A DNA stretch of 64,000 bases from Methylomonas albis (GTDB lineage: Bacteria > Pseudomonadota > Gammaproteobacteria > Methylococcales > Methylomonadaceae), in assembly GCF_014850955.1 (NCBI RefSeq), contig NZ_JACXSS010000001.1, positions 3,906,001 through 3,970,000 of the forward strand, in the 5' to 3' direction. The notes under the pieces were generated by a model. It was given only the letters and a program-made list of their open reading frames with translations, did not search any database and was not told the origin of the DNA. Shown one piece after another: positions 19,937 to 34,565 of this stretch. Numbering within the stretch: the stretch's first letter is position 1; the number at the start of each line of letters is the position of its first letter. Position numbers and translations under genes: made by a program.

Positions 19937-21325
19937 ATGATAAGAATTTTTCGACATTACATTTCCACTGCCTATCTTTGGCTGCTCATGGCGGAATCGC
20001 TAGTGTTTTATCTAGCGATGTATTGTGGAGCAGGCTTAAGGTTTTTATATACGGCATCCTGGTATACCCAAGCCGAGCTTGCAGCTTCTGCTGCGGTTTT
20101 TTCTATTACGTTAATTGCCAGCTGCTCCGGCTTAGGCTTATACAGAAAAACATTGGACAAAGAAGAATACAATATTTTACAACGTATTAGTTTCAGCTTT
20201 GCCCTCGCGGTTTTTATACTGGCTTTCATCTATTACATCATTCCAGACTTGATGCTAGCACGTAGCGTCTTGATTTCCGCGATTATCTTTTCTTTTGTTG
20301 GCTTGCTATTAACCCGCTATTTGTTTTATCGCTTCGTCAATCTGGATAATTTAAAACGCAGAGTATTAGTGGTTGGTTGTGGTCAAAGAGCGGGCGAACT
20401 CAGCGTTGTCAACTCCAGCTATATTTACAAAGGCTTTGAAATCGTCGGCTACATCACGCTGGAAGATGAACCGATTAGCGTACCGCATGCGATAGCACTC
20501 AACGAAAAAATTAGGCTTACCGACATTGTAGAAGCCGCTAATGTCGATGAAATAGTTATTGCTGTCGATGATCGTAGAAAAAAACTACCTGTGGAAGAAC
20601 TGCTGGACATCAAAATGTCCGGCGTGCAAATTATGGATTTGCAAACCTTCTATGAAAGAGAACAGCGCCTGGTTTTTCTGGAGGCACTAAGCCCGAGCTG
20701 GCTGATGTTTTCCGATGGCTTTGTGAGTGGCGGACTACGCCCCATCGTAAAGCGCAGCTTTGATATTGTTGCCAGCTTGTTACTGCTTTCCGTAAGTTGG
20801 TGGCTGATGATTATCACCACGCTGGCAATCTATATCGAAAGCGGCTTCGGCGCACCAGTTTTTTATCGGCAAAAACGTGTCGGCTATCGAGACATACCCT
20901 TTGATGTCATCAAGTTTCGCAGTATGCGTATCGATGCCGAAAAAAATGGCGCGCAGTGGGCTAGCCAAACGGATGATCGCGTGACTCGCGTCGGTAAAGT
21001 GATTCGTAAATACCGGATAGACGAGTTACCACAACTGCTAAATGTATTAAAAGGCGATATGAGCTTTGTCGGCCCGCGCCCGGAAAGACCCGAATTCGTT
21101 AAAGGTTTCGAAGAGAACATTCCGTACTACAAAGAACGACATAGGGTAAAACCCGGCATCACGGGATGGGCGCAGCTCTGTTATCCCTACGGCGCGAGCG
21201 AATACGATACCCGGCAAAAACTACAATTCGATTTGTATTACGTCAAAAATTATAGTTTGTTTCTGGACTTGACGATAATGCTTAGCACCGTGGAAGTAAT
21301 TTTGTGGGGCAAGGGAGCTAGATAA
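19937..21325 (+). CDS. Undecaprenyl-phosphate sugar transferase, EpsB-like, exosortase-associated type
   Basis: This 462-residue membrane enzyme starts exopolysaccharide repeat synthesis by loading a sugar phosphate on undecaprenyl phosphate. Four to five N-terminal hydrophobic helices (10-135) precede a CoA-binding-like Rossmann region (140-250, [12 protein letters not shown]), a reentrant hydrophobic helix (about 275-300), and the catalytic bacterial sugar transferase domain with [24 protein letters not shown] and RPERPEF. The overall layout fits the XrtA/PEP-CTERM-associated family (TIGR03013 by recollection). It is the first sugar-transfer step of the cluster. Confidence 0.9.
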
Positions 21326-21497
21326 CTTAGCACCTTAGCAAGCACAGAAACAGCTATGAGCATCACACCTTAAAACTCCATAGCTGGTCGCAGTTTTAAA
21401 CGTCGACAACACAGAAACATATCAAAAAACTGACTGGACCCCAGGCCAGCTGAATACCTCTGATCTGGCAAATTTACTAACATCTAGCGAGGTGCAC

Positions 21498-22565
21498 GTG
21501 GCCAACTGTAAGCAGTGCTTAATTTCCGATGCGGTACCCGATATCACGTTGGACGCAGATCGCGTTTGTAATCTTTGTCGTGATTTCAATCCTCAAGACC
21601 AAATACGAGAGGAAGAGAGCCGCAAAGAGCGAGAGCTTGACCTGGAAAAGGCGCTGCGAGAGTGCAGGAATCAAGCGGAATATGACTGCCTAGTGCCGGT
21701 TAGCGGCGGTAAGGATAGCCTTTATTTGGTCTACAAATTAAAAGTCGAATACGGCCTAAAAGTCCTGGCATTTACCACGGATATTAATATTCCCGCCATT
21801 GCCTGGGATAATATCCGACGCACACTCAGCAAACTGGATATCGACCACTTGGTATATCGCCCGTCGGATAAGTTCTACCAAAAGGCTTTTCGTTACCTCT
21901 TAAAAAATCAAGAACCGAGAGGCGCGGTCTATACAGTATCGTATGTCTATGCCCCCTTATTTGAAGGCGATGCGATCAAACTCGCCCTCCAAAAGAATAT
22001 ACCGTTAATTCTGGCAGGATACTCGCCTGGGCAACCTGAGCCGGAAAGAATGCTTTACGAATTCTCCAGAAAACTAATTTGCGAAGTTGACTGGACACCG
22101 CCGGCATTGAAAACGTGCGGCGAATTCGATGAACAAGAATTGTCGCGCTTCTTCAATCCTAATAATTATCCCAAAGGCACCGAATTTCCACGCTATTTAG
22201 CCCCTTATCATGCCTGGAAATATAACCAAGAAGAGGTGATGCGAAAAGTCGTCGAATTGGGCTTGGTTAAGTCAAATAAACACGCCAGCCCTATTTTCAG
22301 CAACTACCCAATCAATTGGTTGCTAATGTATTCCGACTTGAAGCACTTTGGCTACAATCCGTATTTACCAGAGTTCGCCGCTTTAATTCGCGAGGGTAAA
22401 GCCAATATTAAAGAATGGAAAATTTTGATCCCGCTAGTCGACTTTATGATCAAAAACAAGGTCTTGTTGGGTAAGGATGCAAGAAGTAGTCTAAATTGGT
22501 TGGAAATGTCCGAGCACGAACTGGCTATCACCCAGCCTAAAGGAGTTTACGACCCGCCTGTATGA
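21498..22565 (+). CDS. WbpG/WbuX-like PP-loop N-acetyl sugar amidotransferase
   Basis: This roughly 355-residue ATP pyrophosphatase has paired zinc-type cysteines at the N-terminus (CKQC and CNLC) and the PP-loop SGGKDS near residue 70. This architecture matches the N-acetyl sugar amidotransferase family that installs amidino groups on surface sugars. Those enzymes normally use ammonia from HisH/HisF homologues, and none is encoded here. The start is a GTG at 21498 with GAGG five bases upstream; another GTG at 21492 is in frame but overlaps that site. It lies 16 bases before the acyl-activating enzyme gene. Confidence 0.8.
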   Translation: MANCKQCLISDAVPDITLDADRVCNLCRDFNPQDQIREEESRKERELDLEKALRECRNQAEYDCLVPVSGGKDSLYLVYKLKVEYGLKVLAFTTDINIPAIAWDNIRRTLSKLDIDHLVYRPSDKFYQKAFRYLLKNQEPRGAVYTVSYVYAPLFEGDAIKLALQKNIPLILAGYSPGQPEPERMLYEFSRKLICEVDWTPPALKTCGEFDEQELSRFFNPNNYPKGTEFPRYLAPYHAWKYNQEEVMRKVVELGLVKSNKHASPIFSNYPINWLLMYSDLKHFGYNPYLPEFAALIREGKANIKEWKILIPLVDFMIKNKVLLGKDARSSLNWLEMSEHELAITQPKGVYDPPV

Positions 22566-22581
22566 CTGAAAAGGAAACTGT

Positions 22582-24369
22582 ATGAGTAGATATAAGACGC
22601 TTCCCGGTTTATTAAAACTCAAAGCGCACGAAAATCCGGATGACCTGGCGCATTGGTTTCACGATACTGAGGGCACCTGGCGCCCGGTAAGTAATTTAGA
22701 GTTTTATCGGGAAGTGCTGGATTTATCCTGGAAATTGAAAGCTCTTGGCGTAGAAAAAAACCAAGCCGTAGCGATTATGGCCACCACCTCGCACTATTGG
22801 GAATCGATACATCATGCCATTTTATCATTAGGCGGGATTGTGGTCGGCATCGATCCTAACGACAATCCAGAGCAATTAAGCACTATAGTAAAAATTGCAA
22901 ATATTAAAATCCTGGTGATAGACCGCGTTGAATATTGGCATAAGTTTAACAACCTAAGCCAATTCGAAACTATTATTGCGTTTAATTGTGCTCCAACTGA
23001 GAATCAGGCAAATACACTCAAATTTATAAGCACTCCCAACACAACAAACGGCACACTCAACGACACTCCGCAACCAGATATTCTTCAGCCTTCGGATGTT
23101 GCTACCATTATCTTCACTTCAGGCACCACGGGGATACCAAAAGGTATCGCCTATCGGCACGATCAAATTATTGCCGCTATAAATGCGCTGTTGTTGACGT
23201 ATCCAGAAGTAAGTCATCAGCCGTGTCATTTAGTTTGTTGGCTGCCTCTTTCCAATCTTTTTCAACGCATTGTGAACTTATGCGCATTAGCTGGCCAAGC
23301 CGAAGTGTACTTCGTGGAACAGCCACAAAAAATCATCGAATACCTGCCAATAATCAATCCGCATATTTTTGTAGCTGTACCACGTTTTTACGAAAAGCTT
23401 TATCAAGGATTTGAAGCTAAATTAAACCAACAACCTCGGTTCATTGCTCAATGTCTTCGCTATTGCCTAAAAAGGGGGGAAAGTCAAACGATTGTCGGCT
23501 CGTTCTTCAGGACAGCCAATCGCCAAATTTTTAAATCATTTACCGCCCTTTTTGGCAAAAATCTACGTTACATGGTGAGTGGCTCTGCAGCCATACCCCT
23601 ATGGCTGTTAAAGCGTTACCAAGCCATGGGACTCTTGATTTTAGAGGCTTATGGCCTAAGTGAAAACGTAGTGCCGATAGCCGCCAATCGATTTTCAGAG
23701 TATCGATTCGGCACAGTCGGCAAAGCTTTACCGAGCAATATTGTAACACTGGCGGAAGATGGGGAATTATTGGTGAAAGGACCCGGCGCTTTTGAAGGCT
23801 ACCTTGGCGACCAGCAAACCGAACGAAGTCTCGATATATCAAAACACCTTCAGACTGGAGACTACGCGAAAATCGATGCGAAAGGGTTTATAAGCCTAAC
23901 CGGACGCAAATCCGAGGTTTTTAAAACATCAACTGGTAGAAAAATAGCGCCCGTTGAAATCGAGAGCCTCCTTCAGAACGACCCTAGGATAGAGCAGGCC
24001 GTAATTTTTGGAGAAAGCCGAAAATTTTTAGTTGCCCTAACTACCATCGTAAACTCTCGGCCTGCCGATGATTCCGACGCCGTAAGCTATTCTCAGGGAT
24101 TGGCTATGGATTTGCCAAAATATTTGCGGGATTTACCTGAATACAAAAGGCCGGCAGGTGCAATTTTGAGTTTCAAGGCGTTCTCTATTGAGCACCTGGA
24201 GCTGACAGGCAACCTAAAACTAAGGCGTAAAAAAATCCAACAGAATTATGAGCAGTGGATAAATAGTCTCTACGAAGCATTAGCAGACCCTCAATCCGCG
24301 ATTCACAGCCAACCTCTAATGATTAGCCCGGACATTGTGTTAATCAAGCTTCAATGTCCGCAAGGTTAG
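22582..24369 (+). CDS. AMP-forming acyl-CoA synthetase (long-chain type)
   Basis: This 595-residue adenylate-forming ligase has the P-loop-like motif TSGTTGIPKG (179-188), the EAYGLSE motif near 355, and the TGDYAK...GRKSE hinge region near 430-450. It activates a carboxylic acid, probably a long-chain fatty acid, as acyl-AMP and then passes it to CoA or a carrier. Next is a thioester reductase-like SDR (33 bases away), so acyl-thioester reduction to an aldehyde or alcohol is possible. Nearby FeeM/LuxI-like acyltransferases could also use activated acyl groups. The substrate is not shown by the sequence. Confidence 0.88.
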   Translation: MSRYKTLPGLLKLKAHENPDDLAHWFHDTEGTWRPVSNLEFYREVLDLSWKLKALGVEKNQAVAIMATTSHYWESIHHAILSLGGIVVGIDPNDNPEQLSTIVKIANIKILVIDRVEYWHKFNNLSQFETIIAFNCAPTENQANTLKFISTPNTTNGTLNDTPQPDILQPSDVATIIFTSGTTGIPKGIAYRHDQIIAAINALLLTYPEVSHQPCHLVCWLPLSNLFQRIVNLCALAGQAEVYFVEQPQKIIEYLPIINPHIFVAVPRFYEKLYQGFEAKLNQQPRFIAQCLRYCLKRGESQTIVGSFFRTANRQIFKSFTALFGKNLRYMVSGSAAIPLWLLKRYQAMGLLILEAYGLSENVVPIAANRFSEYRFGTVGKALPSNIVTLAEDGELLVKGPGAFEGYLGDQQTERSLDISKHLQTGDYAKIDAKGFISLTGRKSEVFKTSTGRKIAPVEIESLLQNDPRIEQAVIFGESRKFLVALTTIVNSRPADDSDAVSYSQGLAMDLPKYLRDLPEYKRPAGAILSFKAFSIEHLELTGNLKLRRKKIQQNYEQWINSLYEALADPQSAIHSQPLMISPDIVLIKLQCPQG

Positions 24370-24402
24370 AGCACGATCACTACACTTACATAGGGTGTTT
24401 TA

Positions 24403-25524
24403 ATGGCAAAAAGATATTTCGTCACTGGAGCCACCGGTGCAATCGGCAGCGCACTGATTCCACTCTTACTCGAAGAACCTGACAGTCAAATTTGGCTATT
24501 AATACGCGGAAAGTCTTCCGAGCATTTAATGAAACGGCTAGAAGAGCTATTCGACTTTTGGGAAATGGCTGAGCCCCTGGCATTGGATGCGCGCAAACGA
24601 ATCTTCCCCTTACTTGGCGATACCGATCAAAACCAATTCGCTCTAGCTAACGAGCCGTATGCCAAGATCGCGCAACAATGCACGCATATTATTCATTGCG
24701 CCGGCGTAGTAAAAATGAATTTGCCGCTGGAGATAGCGAGACAACACGCGCTCGGTGCCGCCAAAAACATTGTCGAACTTGCGTTAGCTTGTAAGCAATC
24801 TGGCAACTTGCAAAAAATCGAATACGTCAGCACAGTTGGCGTCGGTGGAAAAATGCCGGGTATTTTGCCGGAAACGTGGATTACTAAACCCAGGGAATTT
24901 CATAACACTTACGAACAATCCAAGGCCGAAGCCGAAATCTATCTGCGAGACCAAATTGAGCAGCACCATTTACCGATTACCGTGCATAGGCCGAGCATGG
25001 TGGTAGGCGATTCAAAAACAGGCAAAATTATTCATCATCAGATTTTTTATCATATCTGTGAATTTTTGGCAGGACGTCGAACTTACGGTCTGTTGCCTAA
25101 TCTTGGCAACGCTAAATTAGATACGATACCGGTAGATTACGTCGCGAGCGTAATACAGTGGAGTTCGCTGCAACAAGATACCGCGGGGGAAATTTTCCAC
25201 CTTTGCTCCGGGCCGACTCAATCTATCCAGTTGGCCGAATTACAAACAATTGTCCGACATATGTTTAGATCACAGGGATTCAAAGTACCTGTGGTCATTC
25301 ACCTGCCAATCAGTTTATTTAACGCTGTGTTGAATTTCGTCGCACCCTGGTTCTCCGACAAACTGCAGCGCGCAGTGCGGGCCTTTCCATTTTTTCTCGA
25401 TTATTTAGCTGACGAAAACGGTTTCGATAATTCGCTAACGAATCAGACGTATAGTTGTCACCCACCTAGCCCTCTTGACTATCTCGCTACTGTGTTAACT
25501 GAATATCGACGGATTCAAAGGTAA
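24403..25524 (+). CDS. Thioester reductase-like SDR (fatty acyl reductase type)
   Basis: This 373-residue extended short-chain dehydrogenase has the NAD(P) motif TGATGAIG (8-15) and a Tyr-x3-Lys pair in TYEQSKAE near 170. The wide N-terminal spacing (LLIRGKSSEHLMKRLEEL) and overall form resemble the reductase domains of Lys2, carboxylic acid reductases and fatty acyl-CoA reductases. No carrier protein is encoded next to it. It is the last gene of the rightward series from the protease; the following 366 bases are non-coding. Confidence 0.82.
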   Translation: MAKRYFVTGATGAIGSALIPLLLEEPDSQIWLLIRGKSSEHLMKRLEELFDFWEMAEPLALDARKRIFPLLGDTDQNQFALANEPYAKIAQQCTHIIHCAGVVKMNLPLEIARQHALGAAKNIVELALACKQSGNLQKIEYVSTVGVGGKMPGILPETWITKPREFHNTYEQSKAEAEIYLRDQIEQHHLPITVHRPSMVVGDSKTGKIIHHQIFYHICEFLAGRRTYGLLPNLGNAKLDTIPVDYVASVIQWSSLQQDTAGEIFHLCSGPTQSIQLAELQTIVRHMFRSQGFKVPVVIHLPISLFNAVLNFVAPWFSDKLQRAVRAFPFFLDYLADENGFDNSLTNQTYSCHPPSPLDYLATVLTEYRRIQR

Positions 25525-25890
25525 TCCCCCTAAAAACAGCATTGCCTAAAAGTAGAATATTCTCGTAACAGACGGCGGAATAATGCTGAGTAGTTTTCTC
25601 TTTCATTGCTCCGTTCTCTCAAAAGTGAGAACCTCCAAGAAATCTGGGGCGATTCAGTGATGCGTAAAACAAAAAAAATGCCGCCCAATGCTTGTCAGCT
25701 TTTTTTACACTCAATAGTTCAATAAAGTTATGAAACACAACGCAACATATACAACCAACTGATTAGCATGAAAAATACATAAATGGCATTTTTTTTGCCT
25801 TCAATAATTTGTGTTAGCTTGAGTGATGATAAACACTCTTATCCTGACCATGCAATAATTTATTTCACTACTTTTTTTGAGAGATACGTC
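25525..25890. other. Intergenic region upstream of the PEP-CTERM gene
   Basis: AT-rich and without a convincing gene. It holds the sigma-54 promoter at 25784-25798 and a leader of about 80 bases. A small inverted repeat, GTTCTC-TCAAAAGT-GAGAAC at about 25613-25632, could be an activator site or part of a terminator for the upstream gene; it has no T-run. Confidence 0.4.
25784..25798 (+). promoter_or_regulatory. Sigma-54 promoter of the PEP-CTERM gene at 25891
   Basis: TGGCAT-N5-TTGC with exact GG-N10-GC spacing (GG 25785-25786, GC 25797-25798). The predicted start is near 25810, about 80 bases before the ATG. Exosortase-linked PEP-CTERM genes are often tied to the sigma-54-dependent PrsK/PrsR system, which fits. 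Confidence 0.7.
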
Positions 25891-26736
25891 ATGAAACTTA
25901 CTAAAACACAATTAGCAGGAATATTAACAGGGGCGCTTGCAATTTCGGGAGCAGCCTCTGCCGCTTCAGTCACTACAATTGATGGCATTACTACTGCAGT
26001 CGGTGGTTATTTAGACATTGGTACTCTTTATGAAGGCCAGGTCACTGGTGTGCCCGGCACAAATTATACGACTGCTATCTCAGCTGTTGGTCAGGAACTC
26101 GGGGGTATTGGCATTGTTGACGCACTAAAAACATCAGGAGGACAAACAGTTTGGTCGAATGGCCAGAATTCAATGGAATTGAGCATGCAATTTGGTGGAT
26201 TTAAAGTAGAAGCAATAAACACTATTGGTTCCGCTATCAATATCTTGTTCAGCGGCGGCTGGGCAAATTTCTACTCGCAAGCAGCAGGAACTTTTAATCC
26301 AAGTCTATTCCCAGCTGACCCGAATGCGGTGGCATCAGCTACAGCAGGAAACCTTTGGCTGAGCACAGTCGGGGCCACATCAAAACTTTGCGTAGCTGCT
26401 GACAACTGCGCCGGTGGCCTAGGTACTGCAATCACACTACAATCAACCATCCTTGCAGGAGACTTATTTAATATTGGCAGCGGCGTTGGTAATGGCTTTT
26501 TAGATATTTTTGGATCTGCACTAGCTAACTCATTATTCGATACCAACACCCAGCCAAGTGGTCAAGATATCGCTCTTGGATCCAGCTTCAATAGCCAAAG
26601 CAGCACCGGCTCTTTTTTTGCAAGCGGCAGTATGGACCTTAGAGGCACGGTTACTGTTCCCGAACCGACTTCAATAGCATTGTTAGGCATGGGAATATTA
26701 GCTTTTGGCTTAAACGGTCGTAAGCTTAAAGCTTAA
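25891..26736 (+). CDS. PEP-CTERM sorted exported protein
   Basis: This 281-residue protein has a signal peptide (MKLTKTQLAGILTGALAI..., ending ASA near residue 25) and a C-terminal sorting tag with VPEP, a hydrophobic helix (IALLGMGILAFGL) and a short basic tail (NGRKLKA). The mature part is rich in Gly, Ser, Asn and Thr with one Cys pair (LCVAADNCAG), typical of extracellular beta-rich proteins. The start at 25891 is chosen over an upstream frame start at 25783, which lies inside the promoter. It ends just before a strong terminator. It is probably anchored or released by an exosortase encoded elsewhere. Confidence 0.9.
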   Translation: MKLTKTQLAGILTGALAISGAASAASVTTIDGITTAVGGYLDIGTLYEGQVTGVPGTNYTTAISAVGQELGGIGIVDALKTSGGQTVWSNGQNSMELSMQFGGFKVEAINTIGSAINILFSGGWANFYSQAAGTFNPSLFPADPNAVASATAGNLWLSTVGATSKLCVAADNCAGGLGTAITLQSTILAGDLFNIGSGVGNGFLDIFGSALANSLFDTNTQPSGQDIALGSSFNSQSSTGSFFASGSMDLRGTVTVPEPTSIALLGMGILAFGLNGRKLKA

Positions 26737-26775
26737 AATACCACGCGCCATATTTAAATTCCAATATAACTAATG

Positions 26776-26808
26776 AGCCATTCAGTTTTTAAGCTGAATG
26801 GCTTTTTT
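26776..26808 (+). terminator. Rho-independent terminator of the PEP-CTERM gene
   Basis: A 10-bp perfect stem (AGCCATTCAG / CTGAATGGCT, 26776-26785 with 26794-26803) has an 8-base loop and runs into TTTTTT at 26803-26808. It ends 12 bases before the stop of the convergent ThiF-type gene; on the minus strand it lacks a T-run. Confidence 0.88.
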
Positions 26809-26819
26809 GCCATAAACAA

Positions 26820-27671
26820 CTATAATCTTGATCGCAAAATCATTTTTTTGATTCGCTGAAAAGGGCCTTTCATGCCAAATGGAAAACGGTGCTTCTTATA
26901 CACTTGAAGCAAAGCATCGTACTGCACCACCGTTGGCACAGCAAGCTGTACAGTCTTACCCAAAAGAATATTGCAAACATTTGTCGCAATGACGCCGGCA
27001 ATCATGAACGGCGCAGGCGCGACAGAAGGTAATTGATGATTGTCGATATCAAGACCGGAACGATTAAGATATTTGAACATGTAAGCCTTCGGGGCAATTC
27101 CAGCAATTAACGACACCGACAGATCAAACTCGCTGTCGGTAGGGCGAAAATTGAAATAGTCTTCAAAACGCATTCCACGGGGATTGAAACACAGCAACGT
27201 AAAACCAAAACCCAATGGTGGCGCGGTCAAAACCCACAAACCTTTGCTTCGCGCGGCCGCATAAAGCAGGAAACGTTCTTTAAAACAATAAAAATCCAGG
27301 GAGTCAACCACGATATCAACGTCTTCAAGAAACTGTTCAATCGTATCCTGCTGAACTCCAGTGTTGAAAATTTTTACATCGGCATCAGGGTTAATATTGT
27401 GGACTATTTGCTGAGCGACTAGTGTTTTCTTTTTGCCAATAGTCTCCATAGTCGCACCATATTGGCGGTTAAAGTTTTTCAACTCATACTCATCAATATC
27501 AGCAAGATTAAAACTGCCTATTCCAAGCCGACTAAGCGCTGCCACCTGAGCACTTCCAGTCCCCCCGAGCCCCGCAATAGCTACTCGAGACGCTTTAAGT
27601 TTTTTTTGCTCATCAAGACTAATAAACCCCTTATTTCGAAGGAAGGCTGTATCATAATCAAAGTTTGTCAT
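26820..27671 (-). CDS. ThiF/E1-like adenylyltransferase
   Basis: This 283-residue E1-superfamily protein has GLGGTG (34-39), the acidic LADID (56-60), NFNRQYG (66-72) with the E1 arginine, and Lys80/81, so ATP binding and carboxylate adenylation look possible. It lacks the paired CxxC zinc motifs usual in ThiF and MoeB, as well as any rhodanese domain. Family members activate the C-terminus of a beta-grasp protein or peptide, or a small carboxylate. No such peptide gene is adjacent. It follows a methyltransferase gene by 30 bases on the same strand, so the two form an operon. Confidence 0.8.
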   Translation of the reverse strand: MTNFDYDTAFLRNKGFISLDEQKKLKASRVAIAGLGGTGSAQVAALSRLGIGSFNLADIDEYELKNFNRQYGATMETIGKKKTLVAQQIVHNINPDADVKIFNTGVQQDTIEQFLEDVDIVVDSLDFYCFKERFLLYAAARSKGLWVLTAPPLGFGFTLLCFNPRGMRFEDYFNFRPTDSEFDLSVSLIAGIAPKAYMFKYLNRSGLDIDNHQLPSVAPAPFMIAGVIATNVCNILLGKTVQLAVPTVVQYDALLQVYKKHRFPFGMKGPFQRIKKMILRSRL

Positions 27672-27701
27672 CGGCTTTGTCCATTCGTTTACTACAGTAA
27701 T

Positions 27702-28748
27702 CTATTTCTTTCCAATCAAAATACCATGATCGAGCGGCAGGCCTTCAAGTCTTTTTGTGCTCGAGAAACCGACTTCTTTAAGCCAAGCTTCGTAATCGGA
27801 CCACGAATAGAGCATTCCATCACCCGTGGCAATAGCTTGAAAATAGGGAGAGCCCAGAGCCGTACTGATCGGACCATCATCGTTATCATTACCCATCATA
27901 TTAAAAATGACCACAATACCACCCTCAGGGAGAGCAGCGTAGGTACGCTTCAATAATGCAATATTAGTTTCTGGGGACCAAATAGTTAAAATGTGCGAGT
28001 ACAAAATTGCATCGATACCCGTCGGAAATGGGTCACTCAGAAAATTACCCGGCCATGTGTTTATTCTTGCAGCTAGCCCTTGCTCTTCAATATGTTGCCG
28101 AGCAATTTGACATACCGACTCAGAATCAAAAACACTGACTCTCATATTCGGGTAATTTTTACACAACAAAATTCCATTCGTACCGTCTCCGCCACCGGCA
28201 TCGACTAAATGATGGATATTTTCGAGCTCCACCAGATTTAACAACGACACATTAGCTTGACTCGACAAAGAACTCATCGCATCCTGAAAAACCCTCTCCT
28301 TGAAAGGATCGTTAACGAGTCGCTGGTAAAGCCTATCACCTTGACCAGGAAAGCGCCTCAGACCGACATTGTCGTTTTTTCTAAGTGACTCAACAAAATC
28401 AAGCAATCCTTCGTAGACGATATAACGCTGCCAACCCATGACTAAAGCAAACGAATCCGAGCTATCACTGACAAGTTTTTGCTCTGCAATGCTTGAATTG
28501 CTGTATTGATTTCCCTGTTTTTTTATGATGCGCAATGCGGTTAACCCCGTTAACAACACTCTTGTGGGTTGCGGTTGTAGCTCAAGCACCTTTGCAATGC
28601 CATCGAAGCTGCTTCCCGGATTTTGTGATAAATAATCATATAGACCCAACTCGATGCCTGCCCACAATAATTGAAAGGCCGTATGTCCTGCGGCGATTAA
28701 TAATAGCGAATCAAGGTCAAGTTCATTTGAACATTCTGTTTTTGTCAT
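27702..28748 (-). CDS. SAM-dependent methyltransferase of the O-methyltransferase (dimerising) type
   Basis: This 348-residue protein has an N-terminal winged-helix dimerisation region (about 10-100: AAGHTAFQLLWAGIELGLYD) and a class I SAM fold with the glycine motif VDAGGGDGTNG near 168-178. This layout is that of plant- and polyketide-type O-methyltransferases (hydroxyneurosporene methyltransferase group). The ATG at 28748 is chosen because AGGGGG lies 6 bases upstream; an in-frame start at 28766 overlaps it. It is divergent from the nitroreductase-like gene and operonic with the ThiF-type gene. Substrate unknown, likely a small metabolite. Confidence 0.82.
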   Translation of the reverse strand: MTKTECSNELDLDSLLLIAAGHTAFQLLWAGIELGLYDYLSQNPGSSFDGIAKVLELQPQPTRVLLTGLTALRIIKKQGNQYSNSSIAEQKLVSDSSDSFALVMGWQRYIVYEGLLDFVESLRKNDNVGLRRFPGQGDRLYQRLVNDPFKERVFQDAMSSLSSQANVSLLNLVELENIHHLVDAGGGDGTNGILLCKNYPNMRVSVFDSESVCQIARQHIEEQGLAARINTWPGNFLSDPFPTGIDAILYSHILTIWSPETNIALLKRTYAALPEGGIVVIFNMMGNDNDDGPISTALGSPYFQAIATGDGMLYSWSDYEAWLKEVGFSSTKRLEGLPLDHGILIGKK

Positions 28749-28831
28749 TGGGAAGCCCCCTTTCAAGCGTGATAAGTTTCGTTTTTAATTGTAGACTATG
28801 GATCTTTAATTTGTCATCCGGGCGGTATAGC

Positions 28832-29860
28832 ATGTTAGAAGTCTTCGAATATTTAGCAAATGCTGGACAGAGAGCACCCTCAGCTGACAATTCCCAGCCC
28901 TGGATTTTTGCACGACACGATCGAAGCCTCAAATTATTTATCGATTTAGGCAAAATTAAGCCAAGCTGCTTCGACGTCGAGCACCCAGCTATATTGTTAG
29001 CAATTGGCGCAGTAATTGAAAACGTGTTAGAGGCCGCCAATTGGATTGGGATCGAGATAACTTATGATAACTATGTAGACCTAAAAACAGGGTTGTGCGC
29101 CACTTTTCATGTTGCGCAACACCATTTAGCGCTTCCTGACAATGCCAATGAACATCCGCTATTTAAGAGGCATACGAATCGGTTGCCTTTCGAAAAAAGG
29201 CCGATATCAAAGGATATATTGACTAAAATCAAAAATATTTCAAATTCGAAAGATCAAATTCTGATTATTGAGGATGCCGAATCATTTAAACAATGGGCGG
29301 AATGGATAAAGACAGCATCGGAAGTTCGGTTTCAGACTCCTGACATACATGAATGGTTTGGTCAAAGCCTTAAATTTACCAACAACGAAGTATCCTCAAA
29401 CGAAGGACTTGATGTTGCGACGCTTGGACTTCCATTAATTGGAAAAATATTTTTAAAAGCTACACAAACCTGGGAACGAATGAATATTTTAAATAAAATT
29501 GGCATGCATAAACTAATTGCAAAACTTGAGAGTGCCAAAATTAAAGACTCAGCAGCATTGATAGGTATTACTGGCACACTGGACATAGACACAATTATTT
29601 CTTCAGGCCGACTTATGGAGAGAATCTGGATTACCCTGAATGCTGGGGGATTAAGCGTTCAGCCTTATTTTGTTATATCAGACCAGTTATACCGCTTTAA
29701 GCGACAAAAAATACCACATAATTTGACCGGTAAAATTGCGAATTTAGAAGCTAATTTACAACCATTACTTAAGGATAGTTTTCTATACATTTTATTGAGA
29801 GTTGGATATTGCAAACAACAGCCAAAAATGTCTTTGCGCAAAAAAATTAGCTTTAACTAG
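28832..29860 (+). CDS. Nitroreductase-like flavoprotein (Acg/Rv3131-like)
   Basis: This 342-residue protein has the FMN-contact stretch RAPSADNSQPW (14-24), followed by two nitroreductase-like halves; the second holds GLSVQPYF near residue 290. The length and duplicated form recall the Acg-type nitroreductase-like proteins, which often lack simple nitroreductase activity. The start at 28832 fits this motif; a longer frame runs back into the divergent methyltransferase. Its TAG stop is the end of a 4-base CTAG that was duplicated by insertion of the next element, so the protein was not truncated. Substrate unknown; oxidation or dehydrogenation is possible. Confidence 0.75.
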   Translation: MLEVFEYLANAGQRAPSADNSQPWIFARHDRSLKLFIDLGKIKPSCFDVEHPAILLAIGAVIENVLEAANWIGIEITYDNYVDLKTGLCATFHVAQHHLALPDNANEHPLFKRHTNRLPFEKRPISKDILTKIKNISNSKDQILIIEDAESFKQWAEWIKTASEVRFQTPDIHEWFGQSLKFTNNEVSSNEGLDVATLGLPLIGKIFLKATQTWERMNILNKIGMHKLIAKLESAKIKDSAALIGITGTLDIDTIISSGRLMERIWITLNAGGLSVQPYFVISDQLYRFKRQKIPHNLTGKIANLEANLQPLLKDSFLYILLRVGYCKQQPKMSLRKKISFN

Positions 29861-30186
29861 AGGCTGTTGCCGTTTTGGGCTGATAAACTCCCTTTGGCTG
29901 CCCACATGATTGCTGATAAAGGCTATGACAGTGAGTCTTTACGTATTCAAATTCGAGACAAAGGGAGTGTGCCTATCATTCCTAGAAAACAGAACTCAAC
30001 CATTGGGAATGACGAAACGGACTGGTGCCTCTACAAGTATCGCCACCTCGTTGAAAATGTATTTGCGCGACTGAAACATTTCAGAGCCATCGCGACGCGA
30101 TATGACAAATTGAAACGCAATTTTGAAAGTGTCGTCGCTTTGGCCTGCGCTTTCATTTGGTTACCCATGTAAAACGGCAACAGCCC
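29861..30186 (+). mobile_element. Internally deleted IS5-type element (MITE-like) with CTAG target duplication
   Basis: This 326-base element is bounded by inverted ends GGCTGTTGCCGTTTT (from 29862) and AAAACGGCAACAGCC (to 30185). It is flanked by CTAG at 29857-29860 and 30187-30190, which reads as a 4-base target duplication of the YTAR type known in the IS427/ISL2 group of IS5. Inside is only the C-terminal third of a transposase, fused directly to the left end, so it cannot move without a helper. Confidence 0.85.
29867..30172 (+). pseudogene. IS5-family transposase, C-terminal remnant
   Basis: About 100 residues of a DDE transposase remain, with the second catalytic Asp region (MIADKGYDS) and the catalytic Glu region (YRHLVENVFARLKHF). 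The N-terminal two thirds with the first catalytic Asp are gone, and the frame opens from a TTG inside the terminal repeat. Not functional by itself. Confidence 0.85.
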
Positions 30187-30343
30187 CTAGGCTCCTTCGA
30201 AAAATAATTGGGAAATAATGTGACAATTTGGATCAAAATTTACGCCTGGAGATATTCAACTTCCAAGAGAACAGTATATCTGACTCTTTCCCACCAATTA
30301 TTTCATTTATACTCTAATTAAGTTATCTTAACCGAGGTTGCCT

Positions 30344-31078
30344 ATGCCCACCATTATTGATGCTTTCGATGAATATTTTGAAATGTTACCGGCAATTTCA
30401 GATGACTTAAAGAAGGAAGTTTATAAGTTACGCTATCAAGTCTATTGCATAGAAACCGGATTTGAAGATCCTGCAAATCATCAAGATGAAGCCGAGTACG
30501 ATGATTTCGATGATAGCTCCATCCACTATCTGATTCGCCATAAACGATTCGATACTTACGCGGCAACAACACGCCTAATTCTACCAAACAAAAAAAATCC
30601 CGAGCGCTTGTTTCCGATTGAACTGCACAGTCAAATCCAAATTCCTGAAGCCTTTAAAGGCATCCCCCGGATGGCCCTAGGCGAAGTTTCAAGATTTTGT
30701 GTTTCCAAAGATTTTAAACGAAGGAAAAAAGAATCAGGCACTTTAACCGGTATAAGTCCGGACACTGATGCTTATTATAGCGAAGACGAACGCAGAACAT
30801 TTCCGCACATCACTATTGCATTAATTGCTTGTTTAGTGAAAATTAGTGCCGAGCATGGCATTGATTATTGGTATGCAGTAATGGAGCCAGCGTTACTGCG
30901 CTTTTTGTCGACACTCGGCATTCATTTTATCCACATTGGCCCACTAACCGACTACCATGGCAAACGTCAACCCGGCATCATCAAAGTGAGCGATCTCCTC
31001 GAAGGAGTAGCAAAAAAAAATCCAGAGCTGTTAGAAATGCTGACGTTTCGCGGTCAGTATTTGCAATCATTCAATTGA
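30344..31078 (+). CDS. Exosortase-associated acyltransferase (FeeM/LuxI-like GNAT), copy 1
   Basis: This 244-residue protein belongs to the GNAT-type family related to LuxI and to FeeM N-acyl amino acid synthases (TIGR03694-type by recollection). The landmark stretch LRYQVYCIETGFE spans 29-41, with an acidic YDDFDDSSIHYLIRH at about 52-66 and EVSRFCVS near 114-121. Family members move a long-chain acyl group from acyl carrier protein to an amino acid or similar amine. The ATG at 30344 has GAGG 6 bases upstream; a TTG at 30338 is in frame but less likely. It is convergent with a second copy. Confidence 0.85.
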   Translation: MPTIIDAFDEYFEMLPAISDDLKKEVYKLRYQVYCIETGFEDPANHQDEAEYDDFDDSSIHYLIRHKRFDTYAATTRLILPNKKNPERLFPIELHSQIQIPEAFKGIPRMALGEVSRFCVSKDFKRRKKESGTLTGISPDTDAYYSEDERRTFPHITIALIACLVKISAEHGIDYWYAVMEPALLRFLSTLGIHFIHIGPLTDYHGKRQPGIIKVSDLLEGVAKKNPELLEMLTFRGQYLQSFN

Positions 31079-31132
31079 TATTCAAAAGACCCCATAGTAA
31101 TAGAGTTTTTTGCGCTAATAGATACAAAACCA

Positions 31133-31187
31133 AGTTCGTAGATTCCCGGATAGCATTTTGAAAATGCTATCCGGGAATCTACGAACT
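31133..31187. repeat. 55-bp perfect palindrome (27-bp arms, 1-base centre)
   Basis: The left arm (31133-31159, beginning AGTTCGTAGATTCCCGG) and right arm (31161-31187) are exact reverse complements around a single G at 31160. It lies between two convergent acyltransferase genes. There is no T-run at either end, so it is not a standard terminator, although transcripts from both sides would form a very stable hairpin. Confidence 0.95.
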
Positions 31188-31204
31188 AATTCAGACCTGC
31201 TAAG

Positions 31205-31942
31205 TCAAGCTCGTTGAAGCCTGCTGGCTGGCACCTCTATCAAGTCTGAATACCGTCGAAACCCCCTTTTATAATCCATTGCCCACAACGGATTGCCGAG
31301 AACATTATCGACAGTCAATCGATAAGGGATTCGAAGCCCCCGATGTTCACACGAATCACCAATTCGCGCCAGATCAAGCCCTCCTTTGCCGAGAATCGAC
31401 GCTAACGCAGGCGCTACCACAAAATACCAATCTACAATATTACGCTCGGCTGAATACAGACAAGCTGCACGAATAAGCCCCCACATAAGACTTCGATTCT
31501 GGTTTTTGAAATCATAAAGGCTTCTCACATTTCCATTTTCTGCGCCTTGCAAATTAGGTGGCGCAAAACGCATGGAGGCAAACCTTTTAGCTTCTTTGAT
31601 TATGCATAATCTGGACATTTCAACCGAAACATTCCGATCTTTCGGGCAAATTTTTTGATACGGCTCGCTCCATTCTTCAAAAGGAAGTAAAGAATTTATT
31701 GGAAAGACAAGCCTCAGACCACCCAACCAATACCCGGATTTGATGTGTCTAACTAAAAAATGGACGGAATTATCATCCCATTTATCTAATTCCATTTGCT
31801 GCGGAAACTTGTCTTTGTCTTCAAAACCCCGCTCTTCGCAATAGACCTGGTATCTGAGATTGTAGTGAAGTTGTTTGCTTTCAGGCGTGTCAGCCAAAAA
31901 AACCTCAAAACAACTATCAAAGGTTTGCTTGTCAGAAATCAA
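31205..31942 (-). CDS. Exosortase-associated acyltransferase (FeeM/LuxI-like GNAT), copy 2
   Basis: This 245-residue paralogue of the convergent gene has the same landmarks: LRYQVYCEERGFE (29-41), DKWDDNSVHFLVRH (53-66) and VEMSRLCI (107-114). Outside these blocks it differs widely from copy 1, so it is not a recent duplicate and may prefer another acyl chain or amine. The start appears to be TTG, with GGAG 7 bases upstream; no ATG is available near the conserved N-terminus. The two copies end 126 bases apart with the palindrome between them. Confidence 0.83.
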   Translation of the reverse strand: MISDKQTFDSCFEVFLADTPESKQLHYNLRYQVYCEERGFEDKDKFPQQMELDKWDDNSVHFLVRHIKSGYWLGGLRLVFPINSLLPFEEWSEPYQKICPKDRNVSVEMSRLCIIKEAKRFASMRFAPPNLQGAENGNVRSLYDFKNQNRSLMWGLIRAACLYSAERNIVDWYFVVAPALASILGKGGLDLARIGDSCEHRGLRIPYRLTVDNVLGNPLWAMDYKRGFRRYSDLIEVPASRLQRA

Positions 31943-32469
31943 GATAAAACTCCGTAATTTAATGAATCAAATCACGCACAAATCCAGTTCGCGCACGAAT
32001 TCCTGGGCGCTAAACAAGCTTGGCCTAGCCTCCCAACACTGCTGGCCTGTTTCTCGGCAAAGCCCGGAAACAGGCCTGATCGTTCATTTTCAATTTGGAC
32101 AGCACACATTTCGCGTCAACTCAGCGTTGCATCTACACATGTAAAAAGGCGGACGTCTTTTATAAACACATCAATTCGCCAGACTGTATTAATAAGCCAC
32201 GAAAGACCGTACCGAGTTTACAAATACAAAATTAAAGACAGCCGGCTATTTTGATTAAGATCAGATGAGGATTAGATTAATTTTTTCTCACCCACCTATC
32301 AACGCAAAGAATTCTCAGCAGTAGGCACACACGCAGCGTGTCTAATAGGAATGGGCACTCCAATAGGTTGAGAACTTTGTAAGAGGCGGCCAAAACGTCA
32401 AAAGACTTAGAAAACTTTCCAAAACCATTCGGGAAAGATCGTCGAAAAGTTTCCAGTTACAGCGACGGG
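31943..32469. other. Non-coding stretch between acyltransferase copy 2 and the IstB remnant
   Basis: No supported gene. It holds a 10-bp perfect hairpin (GGCCTGTTTC / GAAACAGGCC, 32044-32053 with 32067-32076). Near the right end are two similar direct repeats, GAAAACTTTCC (32410-32420) and GAAAAGTTTCC (32444-32454), which resemble the repeated transposase-binding sites at IS21-type ends. Confidence 0.45.
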
Positions 32470-33219
32470 TTATGGGTTTTCTACCGCCTTTCTCCGTTTT
32501 TTAAATCGATAGCAATCATTGCCGGTTTCCAAAATATCGCAGTGGTGGGTAATACGATCTAACAGTGCGGCGGTCATCTTGGCATCGCCGAATACCTGAA
32601 CGCATTCGCCGAAATTGAGATTGGTGGTGATGATCAAGGATGTTTTTTCATAGAGCTGGCTGATCAGGTGGAATAGCAAGGCCCCACCGGATGCTGGAAA
32701 GGGTGGTAGATAACCTAATTCATCCAGAATGACGGCATCCATAGTGGTCAGTTGCTTGGCGAGATTACCGGCTTTGCCCTGCTGTTTTTCTTTATCCAAT
32801 TGATTGACAAGATCGACAGCGTTATAGAAGCGTATTCGCTTGTCTTGGTGAATGGCCGCCACGCCCAAGGCTGGCGCCAGATGGGTTTTGCCGGTGCCAG
32901 TACCGCCGACTAATATGAGGTTGTAGGCTTGATCCATGAAGCCAGCCGTCGCCAGCTGTTCGATTCTGGCTTTGGGTAACGGTGTTTCTACCCAATCAAA
33001 ATTCATCAAGTCACGATGAATGGGAAAGCGCGCCGCTTTGAATTGATAATTCAAGCTGCGTACCTGGCGATCCGCTTGCTCCGTGGCAATCAAGCGATCC
33101 AACCAGACTTCCGGCATGACGGTTTTTTGCTGAAGCCCATATTCGGCTTGCCACTTGTGCCCTGTGGGTATTCGCTCCAGGCAACAGCCATCCCGAACAG
33201 ATGCCAAGAGCGCCAGCAT
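32470..33219 (-). pseudogene. IstB-type IS21 helper ATPase, remnant
   Basis: The frame encodes an AAA+ ATPase with Walker [11 protein letters not shown] and Walker [11 protein letters not shown], followed by the typical [18 protein letters not shown] block. IstB assists the IS21 transposase IstA. Recognisable similarity begins near [17 protein letters not shown] (about residue 36); the 35 residues before it do not look like an IstB start, and no istA lies beside it. The element is therefore incomplete. The usual GTGKTHLA is kept, but this copy has probably been inactive since losing its partner. Confidence 0.8.
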
Positions 33220-33680
33220 TTTTCGGTAAAGCTGAAATGGGTCCCATCCGATTTCAGCGCGAAAAATTTGCTGGCAGTTTATGCCTTCGGCGGCCCCGAT
33301 TCGTCCGCGTCACCTCGTTTCGACCCAACAGGGGGTCGAAACATCGGCTCTCGCATGACTTGACGCCGTGTCGCGATGCCTTGCAGGTTTTCTCCGCTTC
33401 GCTGCGAAAACCCGCCCAGCGCTACGGCTATCGGGGACTAAAAATCTTCACTTCGCTATCGCTCCGTTTCCAAGATTTTCAGCGCCGGAAAATAAAATCA
33501 AATTAAAGAAATTCGTTCAATCCACCAGGCATCGGTTACAGAAGCTCCCGGATGTTGTTAAATCTTTCTTCAGACATCCAGAATGTCGATTTCCTTGTAA
33601 GTGTCAATACCTTCATTATGAGGAGTAATTTGCTATGCCTACCCAGTCAGACTAAGCACCGATTCATGTAACAAAACTAA
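33220..33680. repeat. Hairpin-rich non-coding stretch
   Basis: No supported gene. Two hairpins stand in a row: GTTTCGACCC / GGGTCGAAAC (33317-33326 with 33333-33342, 6-base loop) and GGTTTTC / GAAAACC (33386-33392 with 33406-33412). The arms AAAATCTT and AAGATTTT at about 33440-33480 make a possible third. At 33633 a ribosome-site-like AGGAG leads to a six-codon frame (MPTQSD) that stops at once, perhaps the broken start of a lost gene. Confidence 0.5.
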
Positions 33681-34565
33681 TCAACTAAGATCTTGCCTAA
33701 TGAAAAATCTAAACATACGCCAAACCATACCAGCTCCCATGAGACTCAAGAGGCTATAGATAATATTTTTAATAGTTAAATGCTTAAGAATATACTCAAA
33801 CCGACTGATATCAATTTCTTCTTTTTTAGCAAAACTACGTTGAGAAAAATCTAGGACCACTTTAGAGTTAGCACTTTTATTCGAATCTCTACCGTGGCCG
33901 CTCACTACTCCGTTTGTCCCTTCCATTGCTCCAATACTATTTCCAAAAACCATCATGGCACTAACCTGCTCATCGACTCCAATAAATCGTTGCAACCTTC
34001 CCAATATATCTGTGCCTCGTAAATCATAGCTAACCATATTGGCATAGATGCTATCGTCAAAGTCTTTAAGATCATAGTATGTCCAAACTAACTTACTATA
34101 GGCCTCGTCGCTCAATCCATTTAGAACTTCGTCGAGTAAGTTTTTATACGAGAACACATCTTCAGAATAATCGTATTTTTCTGTATTCACCCCGGGAATG
34201 GCGTAAAAGAACTCTTGAGCGCCCATAGAGATCTGAGCAGGCCTATTCATATATTCCCGCTCGCGCAATATAGCGTGCGAAATAGAAGGAATTTCGACGA
34301 TTGACTCGTGCGGAGCGACATTAACCATCGAGTTTTCTGAATTCAACTCTTGCCCGAGGATTTTATTTATATCTTTTTTAATTGCAACAGCATCTAAAGA
34401 ATCTTTGGCGATATCCTTGGTTAATTGATGCTTCTTTTTTTCATCTTTCTGCTCGCTATTGTCATAAATCGGCACAGACTGAATCTCTGCTGCGAAGGAT
34501 TCATCCGCCAAAATACCGAGAAAAAACATGCTTATCACTGCGAATCGTAAATTTCTAACTATCAC
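33681..34565 (-). CDS. Exported membrane-anchored protein of unknown function
   Basis: This 294-residue protein has a signal peptide (residues 1-26, ending SFAA), a lysine/aspartate-rich linker (40-70) and a C-terminal hydrophobic helix (about 262-285, IIYSLLSLMGAGMVWRMF) followed by a basic end. This tripartite C-terminus is like a sorting or anchor signal but has no PEP motif. I recognise no domain. The start is GTG. The region is AT-rich compared with the housekeeping genes. Position next to a VanZ-type gene in an exopolysaccharide block suggests an envelope role. Confidence 0.65.
   Translation of the reverse strand: MIVRNLRFAVISMFFLGILADESFAAEIQSVPIYDNSEQKDEKKKHQLTKDIAKDSLDAVAIKKDINKILGQELNSENSMVNVAPHESIVEIPSISHAILREREYMNRPAQISMGAQEFFYAIPGVNTEKYDYSEDVFSYKNLLDEVLNGLSDEAYSKLVWTYYDLKDFDDSIYANMVSYDLRGTDILGRLQRFIGVDEQVSAMMVFGNSIGAMEGTNGVVSGHGRDSNKSANSKVVLDFSQRSFAKKEEIDISRFEYILKHLTIKNIIYSLLSLMGAGMVWRMFRFFIRQDLS

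Follow-up and report, generated by a model that had tools for sequence, protein, structure and literature searches.

Predicted genes for an acyl-oxazolone or N-acyl dehydrotyrosine lipid in Methylomonas albis and the association of ThiF-type enzymes with exosortases

The locus and its five core genes

The genome of the methanotroph Methylomonas albis contains a compact set of genes that, judging from homology, probably makes a fatty-acid-tagged, ring-methylated tyrosine lipid. The set lies in a stretch of 64,000 nucleotides (assembly GCF_014850955.1, contig NZ_JACXSS010000001.1, positions 3,906,001 to 3,970,000 of the forward strand), which is called the window here and is numbered from its first letter. 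The five core genes occupy positions 26820-31942 and encode two N-acyl amino acid synthases (NAS1 and NAS2), a ThiF-type enzyme, a flavin-dependent oxidase and a methyltransferase (MT). A sequence-only reading of this DNA had listed two FeeM/LuxI-like acyltransferases with ThiF, nitroreductase-like, methyltransferase, ligase and reductase genes, and all of these are present according to open reading frames (ORFs) and domains. Genomes compared are denoted by G numbers and genome stretches read by L numbers.

26820-27671, minus strand: ThiF-type enzyme (PF00899, 144 bits; PRK08223, 323 bits, cut-off 266)
about 27702-28748, minus strand: S-adenosylmethionine (SAM) methyltransferase, a predicted aromatic C-methyltransferase of the SibL/SfmM2 kind (PF00891 and Dimerisation; SibL, 216 bits)
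28832..29860, plus strand: flavin-dependent oxidase of the nitroreductase superfamily, a predicted desaturase (342 amino acids; matches to the PRK14851, Rv1355c and Acg families)
30344-31078, plus strand: NAS1 (TIGR03694, 256 bits, cut-off 112)
31205-31942, minus strand: NAS2, the second synthase (TIGR03694, 157 bits, cut-off 112)

The MT gene sits between the ThiF and oxidase genes, and the two synthase genes are arranged tail to tail. All five genes are open across their domains, with the key conserved residues intact. As listed, the oxidase ORF starts at 28535 and overlaps the MT gene in antisense; because this longer ORF runs through the start of the MT gene, the ATG at 28832 is the likely start.

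The ThiF-type enzyme keeps G34-G36-G37-G39, D58, N68-R69-Q70, K82, D123 and D126, residues that 90% or more of 27 other alignment rows share and that presumably have the adenylation-site roles of their counterparts in ThiF and MoeB. The adenylation site is intact, with its ATP-site residues kept in the alignment. The closest solved structures are ThiF and TcdA, followed by E1 enzymes and MoeB. A search of genome contigs with the single ThiF sequence matched one locus, in an archaeal metagenome-assembled genome.

The oxidase matches PRK14851 with 162 bits, the Rv1355c family with 127 bits and the Acg family with 107 bits, all under their curated cut-offs, which were chosen with other proteins or fusions in mind. 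Matches to the NCBIfam families for ThiF-nitroreductase proteins and for Acg cover most of its length, and PRK14851 and Rv1355c match both the ThiF-type enzyme and the oxidase. The Pfam Nitroreductase profile gives 22.1 bits against a cut-off of 23.5. The oxidase keeps the motif APSxDNxQPW, which no fewer than 22 of 24 rows share, and the nearest solved structure by sequence is Acg (2ymv, E 2e-8).

NAS1 and NAS2 are predicted, from their family, to be N-acyl amino acid synthases of the FeeM/LuxI fold. Both exceed the cut-off of PF13444 as well as that of TIGR03694, the family of exosortase-associated acyltransferases that includes NasY. They keep R30, E51, D53, D56, R77, E114, S116 and R117, residues that are invariant in 39/39 synthase rows. 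A sequence search of NAS1 against solved structures gave 6wn0 as the sole match (E 0.052).

Known enzyme sets and the proposed product

The combination of NAS, ThiF and nitroreductase is an already described kind of enzyme set. TyzABC of Mycobacterium tuberculosis, which comprises an acyltransferase, a ThiF cyclase and a flavin-dependent oxidase (FDO), makes acyl-tyrazolones (PMC10404671). TrzAS makes N-acyl oxazolones from tryptophan, with ThiF and oxidase fused (PMC12856293), and OxzAB of Pseudoalteromonas rubra makes N-acyl oxazolones with ThiF and FDO in one protein, as told in PMC10404671 and PMC12856293. In these pathways, the cyclising units are TyzB and, in the fused proteins, the ThiF domains of OxzB and TrzS. 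The window holds the same core, namely NAS, ThiF with an intact adenylation site and an FDO-type oxidase. Its acyltransferase, ThiF and oxidase genes are separate, as in tyzABC; in contrast, the three-gene tyz pathway as described has no methyltransferase, and exosortase is mentioned 0 times in the text of PMC10404671. OxzAB and TrzAS share with the window acyltransferase, ThiF and FDO activities, which there lead to N-acyl oxazolones of aromatic amino acids, whereas their ThiF and FDO are fused and the described pathways have no methyltransferase.

A closer counterpart is found among the stieleriacine producers. The papers on these lipids propose a pathway of NAS, ThiF, nitroreductase and methyltransferase, and the Stieleria maiorica cluster Mal15_37240-37430 has a PEP-CTERM gene inside it and exopolysaccharide genes upstream (PMC7293339, PMC12479983). 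The shared components are NAS, a ThiF-family protein, a nitroreductase-family oxidase, a C-methyltransferase (SfmM2-like in Stieleria) and a PEP-CTERM gene, a likeness known by gene descriptions, including that of the methyltransferase Mal15_37250. The Stieleria cluster is from a planctomycete and has four NAS copies and a fatty acid desaturase gene, whereas the window is from a methanotroph and has two synthases. In S. neptunia, the cluster's own synthase is not the main producer (PMC12479983). The sequence-only reading knew of no described pathway with this set; this does not hold, since the same enzyme kinds occur in the acyl-oxazolone work (PMC10404671, PMC12856293) and, as a proposal, in the stieleriacine work (PMC7293339, PMC12479983).

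The methyltransferase METHYLTRANSFERASE (27702-28748, minus strand) is most similar, among solved structures, to SibL (216 bits over residues 11-346 of 348), well ahead of RedM (117 bits) and the tyrosine O-methyltransferase MfnG (53 bits). SibL is a 3-hydroxykynurenine C-methyltransferase with a published active site (PMC4426599), which was mapped onto MT by hand through the alignment. Y141 and Y302 of MT correspond to the catalytic Y134 and Y295 of SibL, and H341 corresponds to H335. T255-I256 align with V248-I249 of SibL, at the place where the O-methyltransferase ASMT has His-Asp. The catalytic tyrosines, the H335 match and the non-polar pair are kept in 3/3 relatives compared (G182, G041 and G005). 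By full-length score and catalytic tyrosines, MT appears to be a SibL-type enzyme of the kind expected in a stieleriacine-type cluster. Because MT resembles SibL and keeps these tyrosines, ring C-methylation is likely, and the substrate is probably a phenol that lacks a ring amine. The related SfmM2 acts on free phenolic amino acids (PMC13109631), so methylation would precede acylation. The methylation step foreseen in the sequence-only reading is retained, most likely on a ring carbon and not on the carboxylate of the lipid.

The cluster is read as a candidate for acyl-oxazolone or N-acyl dehydrotyrosine biosynthesis of the stieleriacine type, with a probability of about 0.7. The order of steps proposed here follows homology, step by step. 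MT would add a methyl group to an aromatic amino acid on its ring, C3 of tyrosine being the likeliest position. NAS1, and perhaps NAS2, would attach a fatty acyl group from acyl carrier protein (acyl-ACP) or coenzyme A (acyl-CoA). The ThiF-type enzyme would adenylate the carboxylate, after which the amide oxygen would close an oxazolone ring. The flavin oxidase would use O2 to introduce the alpha-beta double bond, either ahead of ring closure or following it. The pathway would end in an N-acyl methyl-tyrosine oxazolone or, once this is hydrolysed, in the open N-acyl dehydro-methyl-tyrosine. The lipid would probably be exported and serve the exopolysaccharide/PEP-CTERM surface programme.

This reading is supported by the domain content and intact key residues, by the tested chemistry of the same enzyme kinds in TyzABC, TrzAS and OxzAB, by the matching Stieleria maiorica proposal with its methyltransferase and PEP-CTERM gene, and by the partial match of the MT active site to SibL. 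Further support comes from the genomes described below.

Recurrence of the set and the survey of exosortase genomes

Genomes from other families contain the set as well, which makes it more than a chance grouping. In G182, from another family, about 7 kb hold two synthases (45% and 37% identical to NAS1), the oxidase (36%), MT, ThiF (63%) and a PEP-CTERM protein, and an exosortase lies 16 kb from ThiF. G041 has the same order of MT, ThiF (40%) and oxidase (36%); a NAS1 relative (46%) follows after 3 kb, and a PEP-CTERM protein is encoded some 2 kb away from the ORF of MT. A ThiF-oxidase fusion stands beside a NAS1 relative in G058 and G052. On a plasmid of Nitratidesulfovibrio vulgaris, a 989-amino-acid FeeM-ThiF-nitroreductase protein is encoded between XrtA exopolysaccharide genes and three PEP-CTERM genes, and this fusion inside an XrtA locus also favours the proposed pathway; the locus carries annotated ATP-binding cassette (ABC)/adaptor genes as well. 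In other genomes, a PEP-CTERM motif was found in 8/8 neighbours of such sets picked by BLAST. The idea of the sequence-only reading that the set acylates, activates, oxidises and methylates is well supported for NAS, ThiF, nitroreductase and MT, which belong together. A conserved neighbourhood, which that reading had named as a check, exists elsewhere for NAS, ThiF and oxidase, but the window's own version is absent from the other 36 genomes of the genus.

Putative exporters are found near several of these loci. Four of the stretches read (L036, L081, L083 and L088) have MMPL transporters close to ThiF, and MacB-type parts occur in L091, L102 and L110. Six ThiF neighbours of about 750-790 amino acids were tested: four were MMPL, one was MacB/FtsX-like and one showed only SPOR. 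MacB-type trios stand beside the ThiF-oxidase pairs of the genus; those of L102 and L110 were tested by Pfam, and 6/8 are alike in size only.

A TIGR03694-type synthase (NasY) is reportedly linked to PEP-CTERM systems, in work of Craig et al. from 2011. Such earlier work ties the synthase to PEP-CTERM; here, the ThiF partner shows the link too. The survey covered 369 gammaproteobacterial genomes, with thresholds of E 1e-40 for ThiF, 1e-15 for TIGR03694 and 1e-10 for exosortase. The ThiF type was found in 40 genomes, spread over 28 families, TIGR03694 in 49 and exosortase in 117. An exosortase is present in 38/40 ThiF genomes against 79/329 others (Fisher p ~4e-19), a TIGR03694 synthase in 30/40 against 19/329 (p ~8e-23), and an exosortase in 34/49 synthase genomes against 83/320 others (p ~7e-9), although these p values are not true probabilities because the genomes are related by descent. 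The ThiF partner therefore tracks exosortase (38/40) more closely than the TIGR03694 synthase does (34/49). ThiF and exosortase are on one contig in 20/40 genomes and within 40 kb of each other in 13/40, against about 1.4 expected under random placing. The synthase lies within 5, 10 and 20 kb of ThiF in 22/40, 26/40 and 27/40 genomes, and the oxidase within 5 kb in 26/40. Both the G182 and G041 neighbourhoods and this co-occurrence of synthase and oxidase with ThiF support the proposed pathway. The surroundings of ThiF were read for 14 of the 40 survey genomes, including the M. albis genome and G042; G041, G058 and G052 are from outside the sample.

There is a systematic association of ThiF with exosortase across the class sample. 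A statement of such a systematic link was not found in the literature searched, which did not cover subscription papers.

Two of the ten ThiF genomes without a TIGR03694 synthase were read. In G296 (L086:10381-11613), one protein adjoining ThiF combines a FeeM domain with a cyclic-nucleotide-binding domain, and cyclic-nucleotide control of acyl amino acid synthesis is possible there. In G373, no FeeM or GNAT type was found among the four neighbours tested.

Surroundings, origin and competing explanations

The core set stands among further features.

19937..21325, plus strand: EpsB_2 XrtA/PEP-CTERM glycosyltransferase (TIGR03013, 564 bits, cut-off 393; syntenic in the genus, part of the backbone and outside the set)
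21492-22565, plus strand: WbuX-like gene (TIGR03573, 122 bits, under its cut-off of 203)
22582-24369, plus strand: AMP-binding acyl-CoA ligase (domain match)
24403-25524, plus strand: NAD_binding_4/thioester-reductase-like gene (domain match)
25783-26736, plus strand: PEP-CTERM protein adjoining the set, weakly PepA-like (PF07589, 23.8 bits; PepA family, 32 bits, cut-off 80)
29857..30190, plus strand: internally deleted IS5-family insertion sequence (transposase end 29867-30172; 20-nucleotide terminal inverted repeats)
31133..31187, no strand: 27-nucleotide perfect inverted repeat between NAS1 and NAS2, a putative two-way terminator (repeat search)
32470-33219: IS21 helper gene

The 27-nucleotide repeat probably is a two-way terminator of the two synthase genes. 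The IS5 remnant of about 0.3 kb lies between the oxidase gene and NAS1, with inverted repeats at 29857-29876 and 30171-30190; it shares 87% identity with IS5 transposases from two plasmids of Methylomonas and is not part of the pathway. It keeps both ends and touches the oxidase stop codon, and the last oxidase residues may be altered. A scan of the window for sigma-54 promoters, which would indicate joint control with the PEP-CTERM regulator, gave 43 sites against 40.6 expected, no sign of such control.

The host genome (5.4 Mb, two contigs, rated 100% complete) carries two AMO/pMMO-A family genes, together with NifL/NifA and Rnf genes. Short pieces of 12 kb searched from the small contig have matches that include Methylomonas plasmids. 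The genome possesses both exosortase genes and genes for XrtA exopolysaccharide, the TIGR03013 gene lying inside the window. The exosortase genes (PF09721 matches at C1:3712142 and C1:1682269) lie outside the window, the cluster and the read stretch of the XrtA exopolysaccharide locus that directly follows the window, where chain-length, FemAB, Stp1 and response regulator genes are found (C1:3970001-4002000). Beside this locus, at C1 about 3989593-3997566 (L034:1593-9566), another TIGR03694 synthase adjoins a DUF2126 amidoligase/transglutaminase protein (1103 amino acids) and a circularly permuted ATP-grasp protein; these genes are possibly a different, peptide-modifying set. The genome has five TIGR03694 genes, while 25/36 other genus genomes have 1-3 and 11/36 have none.

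The cluster occupies a variable spot (21492-34565). Several genomes of the genus share a backbone of cyclophilin, LpxH, HtrA and EpsB on one side and a gene of unknown function, VanZ, DHH and APS kinase on the other, in some with WbuX, ligase and reductase after EpsB. The cargo elsewhere in the genus includes IS21, PEP-CTERM genes, a ThiF-oxidase pair and, in G005, an MT relative. An oxidase match occurs in 10/36 other genus genomes (24-29% identity), in all ten near a ThiF (36-41%; nine within 2 kb, one at 3.2 kb), and 7/10 of these pairs, which differ from the window's, occupy this spot, with EpsB or WbuX-ligase-reductase no more than about 5 kb away. In the trees, the window ThiF groups with G182 (100/100), outside the genus group, and the oxidase with G041, G042 and G182 (100/100); both trees are flagged for long branches, and the ThiF bootstrap had not settled. 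NAS1 groups with the ThiF-linked synthases of G041, G058, G052, G301, G182 and G228 (98/97), which are of other families, and NAS2 falls inside the genus group (97/89), sharing 48-52% identity with other synthases from this genome and from the genus. The simplest reading of these trees is import: ThiF, oxidase and NAS1 probably came from outside the genus as one set. MT may have arrived with them or separately; it fits an outside origin less neatly because the nearest of the three relatives compared is the genus mate G005 (56% identity, against 54-55% for G182 and 47-48% for G041). In G005 (L106:168-4382), the MT relative adjoins a flavin adenine dinucleotide (FAD)-binding protein and a tetratricopeptide repeat (TPR) protein. 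The two synthases that the sequence-only reading placed together have separate histories. NAS1 is the synthase that belongs with ThiF and the oxidase, and NAS2 is most simply read as a home-grown paralogue of the genus type.

The sequence-only reading had also counted the ligase and the reductase as pathway members. In a larger pathway of this kind, both would act on the N-acyl amino acid and reduce, for example, its carboxyl end. Both are less than 5 kb away from ThiF and would make a plausible pair for activation and reduction, G028 has them 3 kb from a ThiF-oxidase pair of the genus type, and weak relatives occur near ThiF elsewhere (WbuX, 27%, in G416; ligase, 23%, in G042). However, the reductase is found in 8/36 other genus genomes and one order-mate, and in 7/7 of these relatives read (G025 and G034 were left out, and the G024 stretch ends with its contig) WbuX, ligase and reductase are consecutive, with the window's MT-ThiF-oxidase-NAS1 set in 0/7 of the stretches read; in G041 and G182, which carry the set, the 18-19 kb read contain no relative of the ligase or of the reductase. 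WbuX, ligase and reductase were rejected as members on this ground, they look like a separate module, and the larger pathway is very improbable. Another idea is that the cluster is mobile-element debris from a disused pathway. The IS5 remnant touching the oxidase gene, the nearby IS21 helper gene and the oxidase gene's low G+C (0.381, the window as a whole having 0.472) would fit such decay, but the five genes are open with conserved key residues, and the low G+C is not distinctive, the neighbouring backbone VanZ gene having 0.373; decay is therefore held to be very unlikely.

Two further alternatives keep the core and change one step. MT could methylate an oxygen of the phenol or carboxylate, giving an O-methyl product. 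The PF00891 fold family with its Dimerisation domain is one of O-methyltransferases, the aromatic C-methyltransferase NapB5 can be promiscuous for oxygen (PMC13109631), S. neptunia makes O-methylated stieleriacines (PMC12479983), and D132, Y288 and D292 of SibL are not kept. Against these points, SibL is by far the best solved relative, the catalytic tyrosines are kept and the His-Asp of ASMT is Thr-Ile in the window, so O-methylation seems unlikely. Alternatively, ThiF could activate the acyl amino acid for transfer to an amine, sugar or protein instead of closing a ring. Relatives of ThiF and the E1 enzymes include ligating and thiocarboxylating enzymes, and many ThiF genes have no oxidase close by, as counted below. 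The stieleriacine families add the same argument, as ThiF is present and no oxazolone has been seen in them; the cyclising TyzB and ThiF domains of OxzB and TrzS argue the other way, and a transfer role appears rather improbable.

Several observations weigh against the proposed acyl-oxazolone or N-acyl dehydrotyrosine pathway itself. The set is not fixed, because the TIGR03694 synthase is missing from 10/40 ThiF genomes and, with the profile used, no oxidase turned up within 5 kb of ThiF in 14/40. The tree places the window ThiF together with G182 on a long branch, and the scan of window genes turned up no exporter. In MT, D132, Y288 and D292 of SibL are replaced by R139, S295 and G299, and Y99 by W106, which makes the substrate unsure. 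An MT relative above 300 bits was found in just 3/43 ThiF genomes searched, the window's included. In G005, an MT relative occupies this spot and the 19 kb read there contain neither ThiF nor oxidase, so this type of MT is found in a second setting too. The stieleriacine, kyonggic and thalassotalic families have ThiF, and no oxazolone has been observed in them (PMC12479983).

A wider reading, considered doubtful at best, is that the exosortase system uses the cyclised, oxidised N-acyl aromatic amino acid as one of its working components, either a coupling lipid or a signal for the surface programme. As an oxazolone is an activated acyl group, the lipid could be handed to an amine, and exosortase or its partners might couple PEP-CTERM proteins or polysaccharide to the reactive lipid. 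Alternatively, the lipid might be a signal that turns the surface programme on. Such a role would explain why ThiF occurs almost always in exosortase genomes and often lies close to exosortase, and it would also explain the PEP-CTERM genes and MMPL/MacB-type exporters near several read loci and the FeeM-ThiF-oxidase fusion in an XrtA locus.

To our knowledge, no reason has been established for N-acyl amino acid synthases sitting with exosortases. The pathway itself is not new, and the cluster adds a methanotroph case; the systematic ThiF-exosortase association is the interesting part. The role of acyl oxazolones has been called a major unresolved question (PMC12856293), and the survey joins it to the question of the synthase-exosortase association. 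A distinct polysaccharide band was lost from Methylomonas sp. LW13 when an N-acyl amino acid synthase of its exosortase system was disrupted (PMC11072679). Methanotrophs with genetics are a direct test ground for the ThiF-exosortase link, and the product of the window cluster can be predicted closely enough to be searched for by mass.

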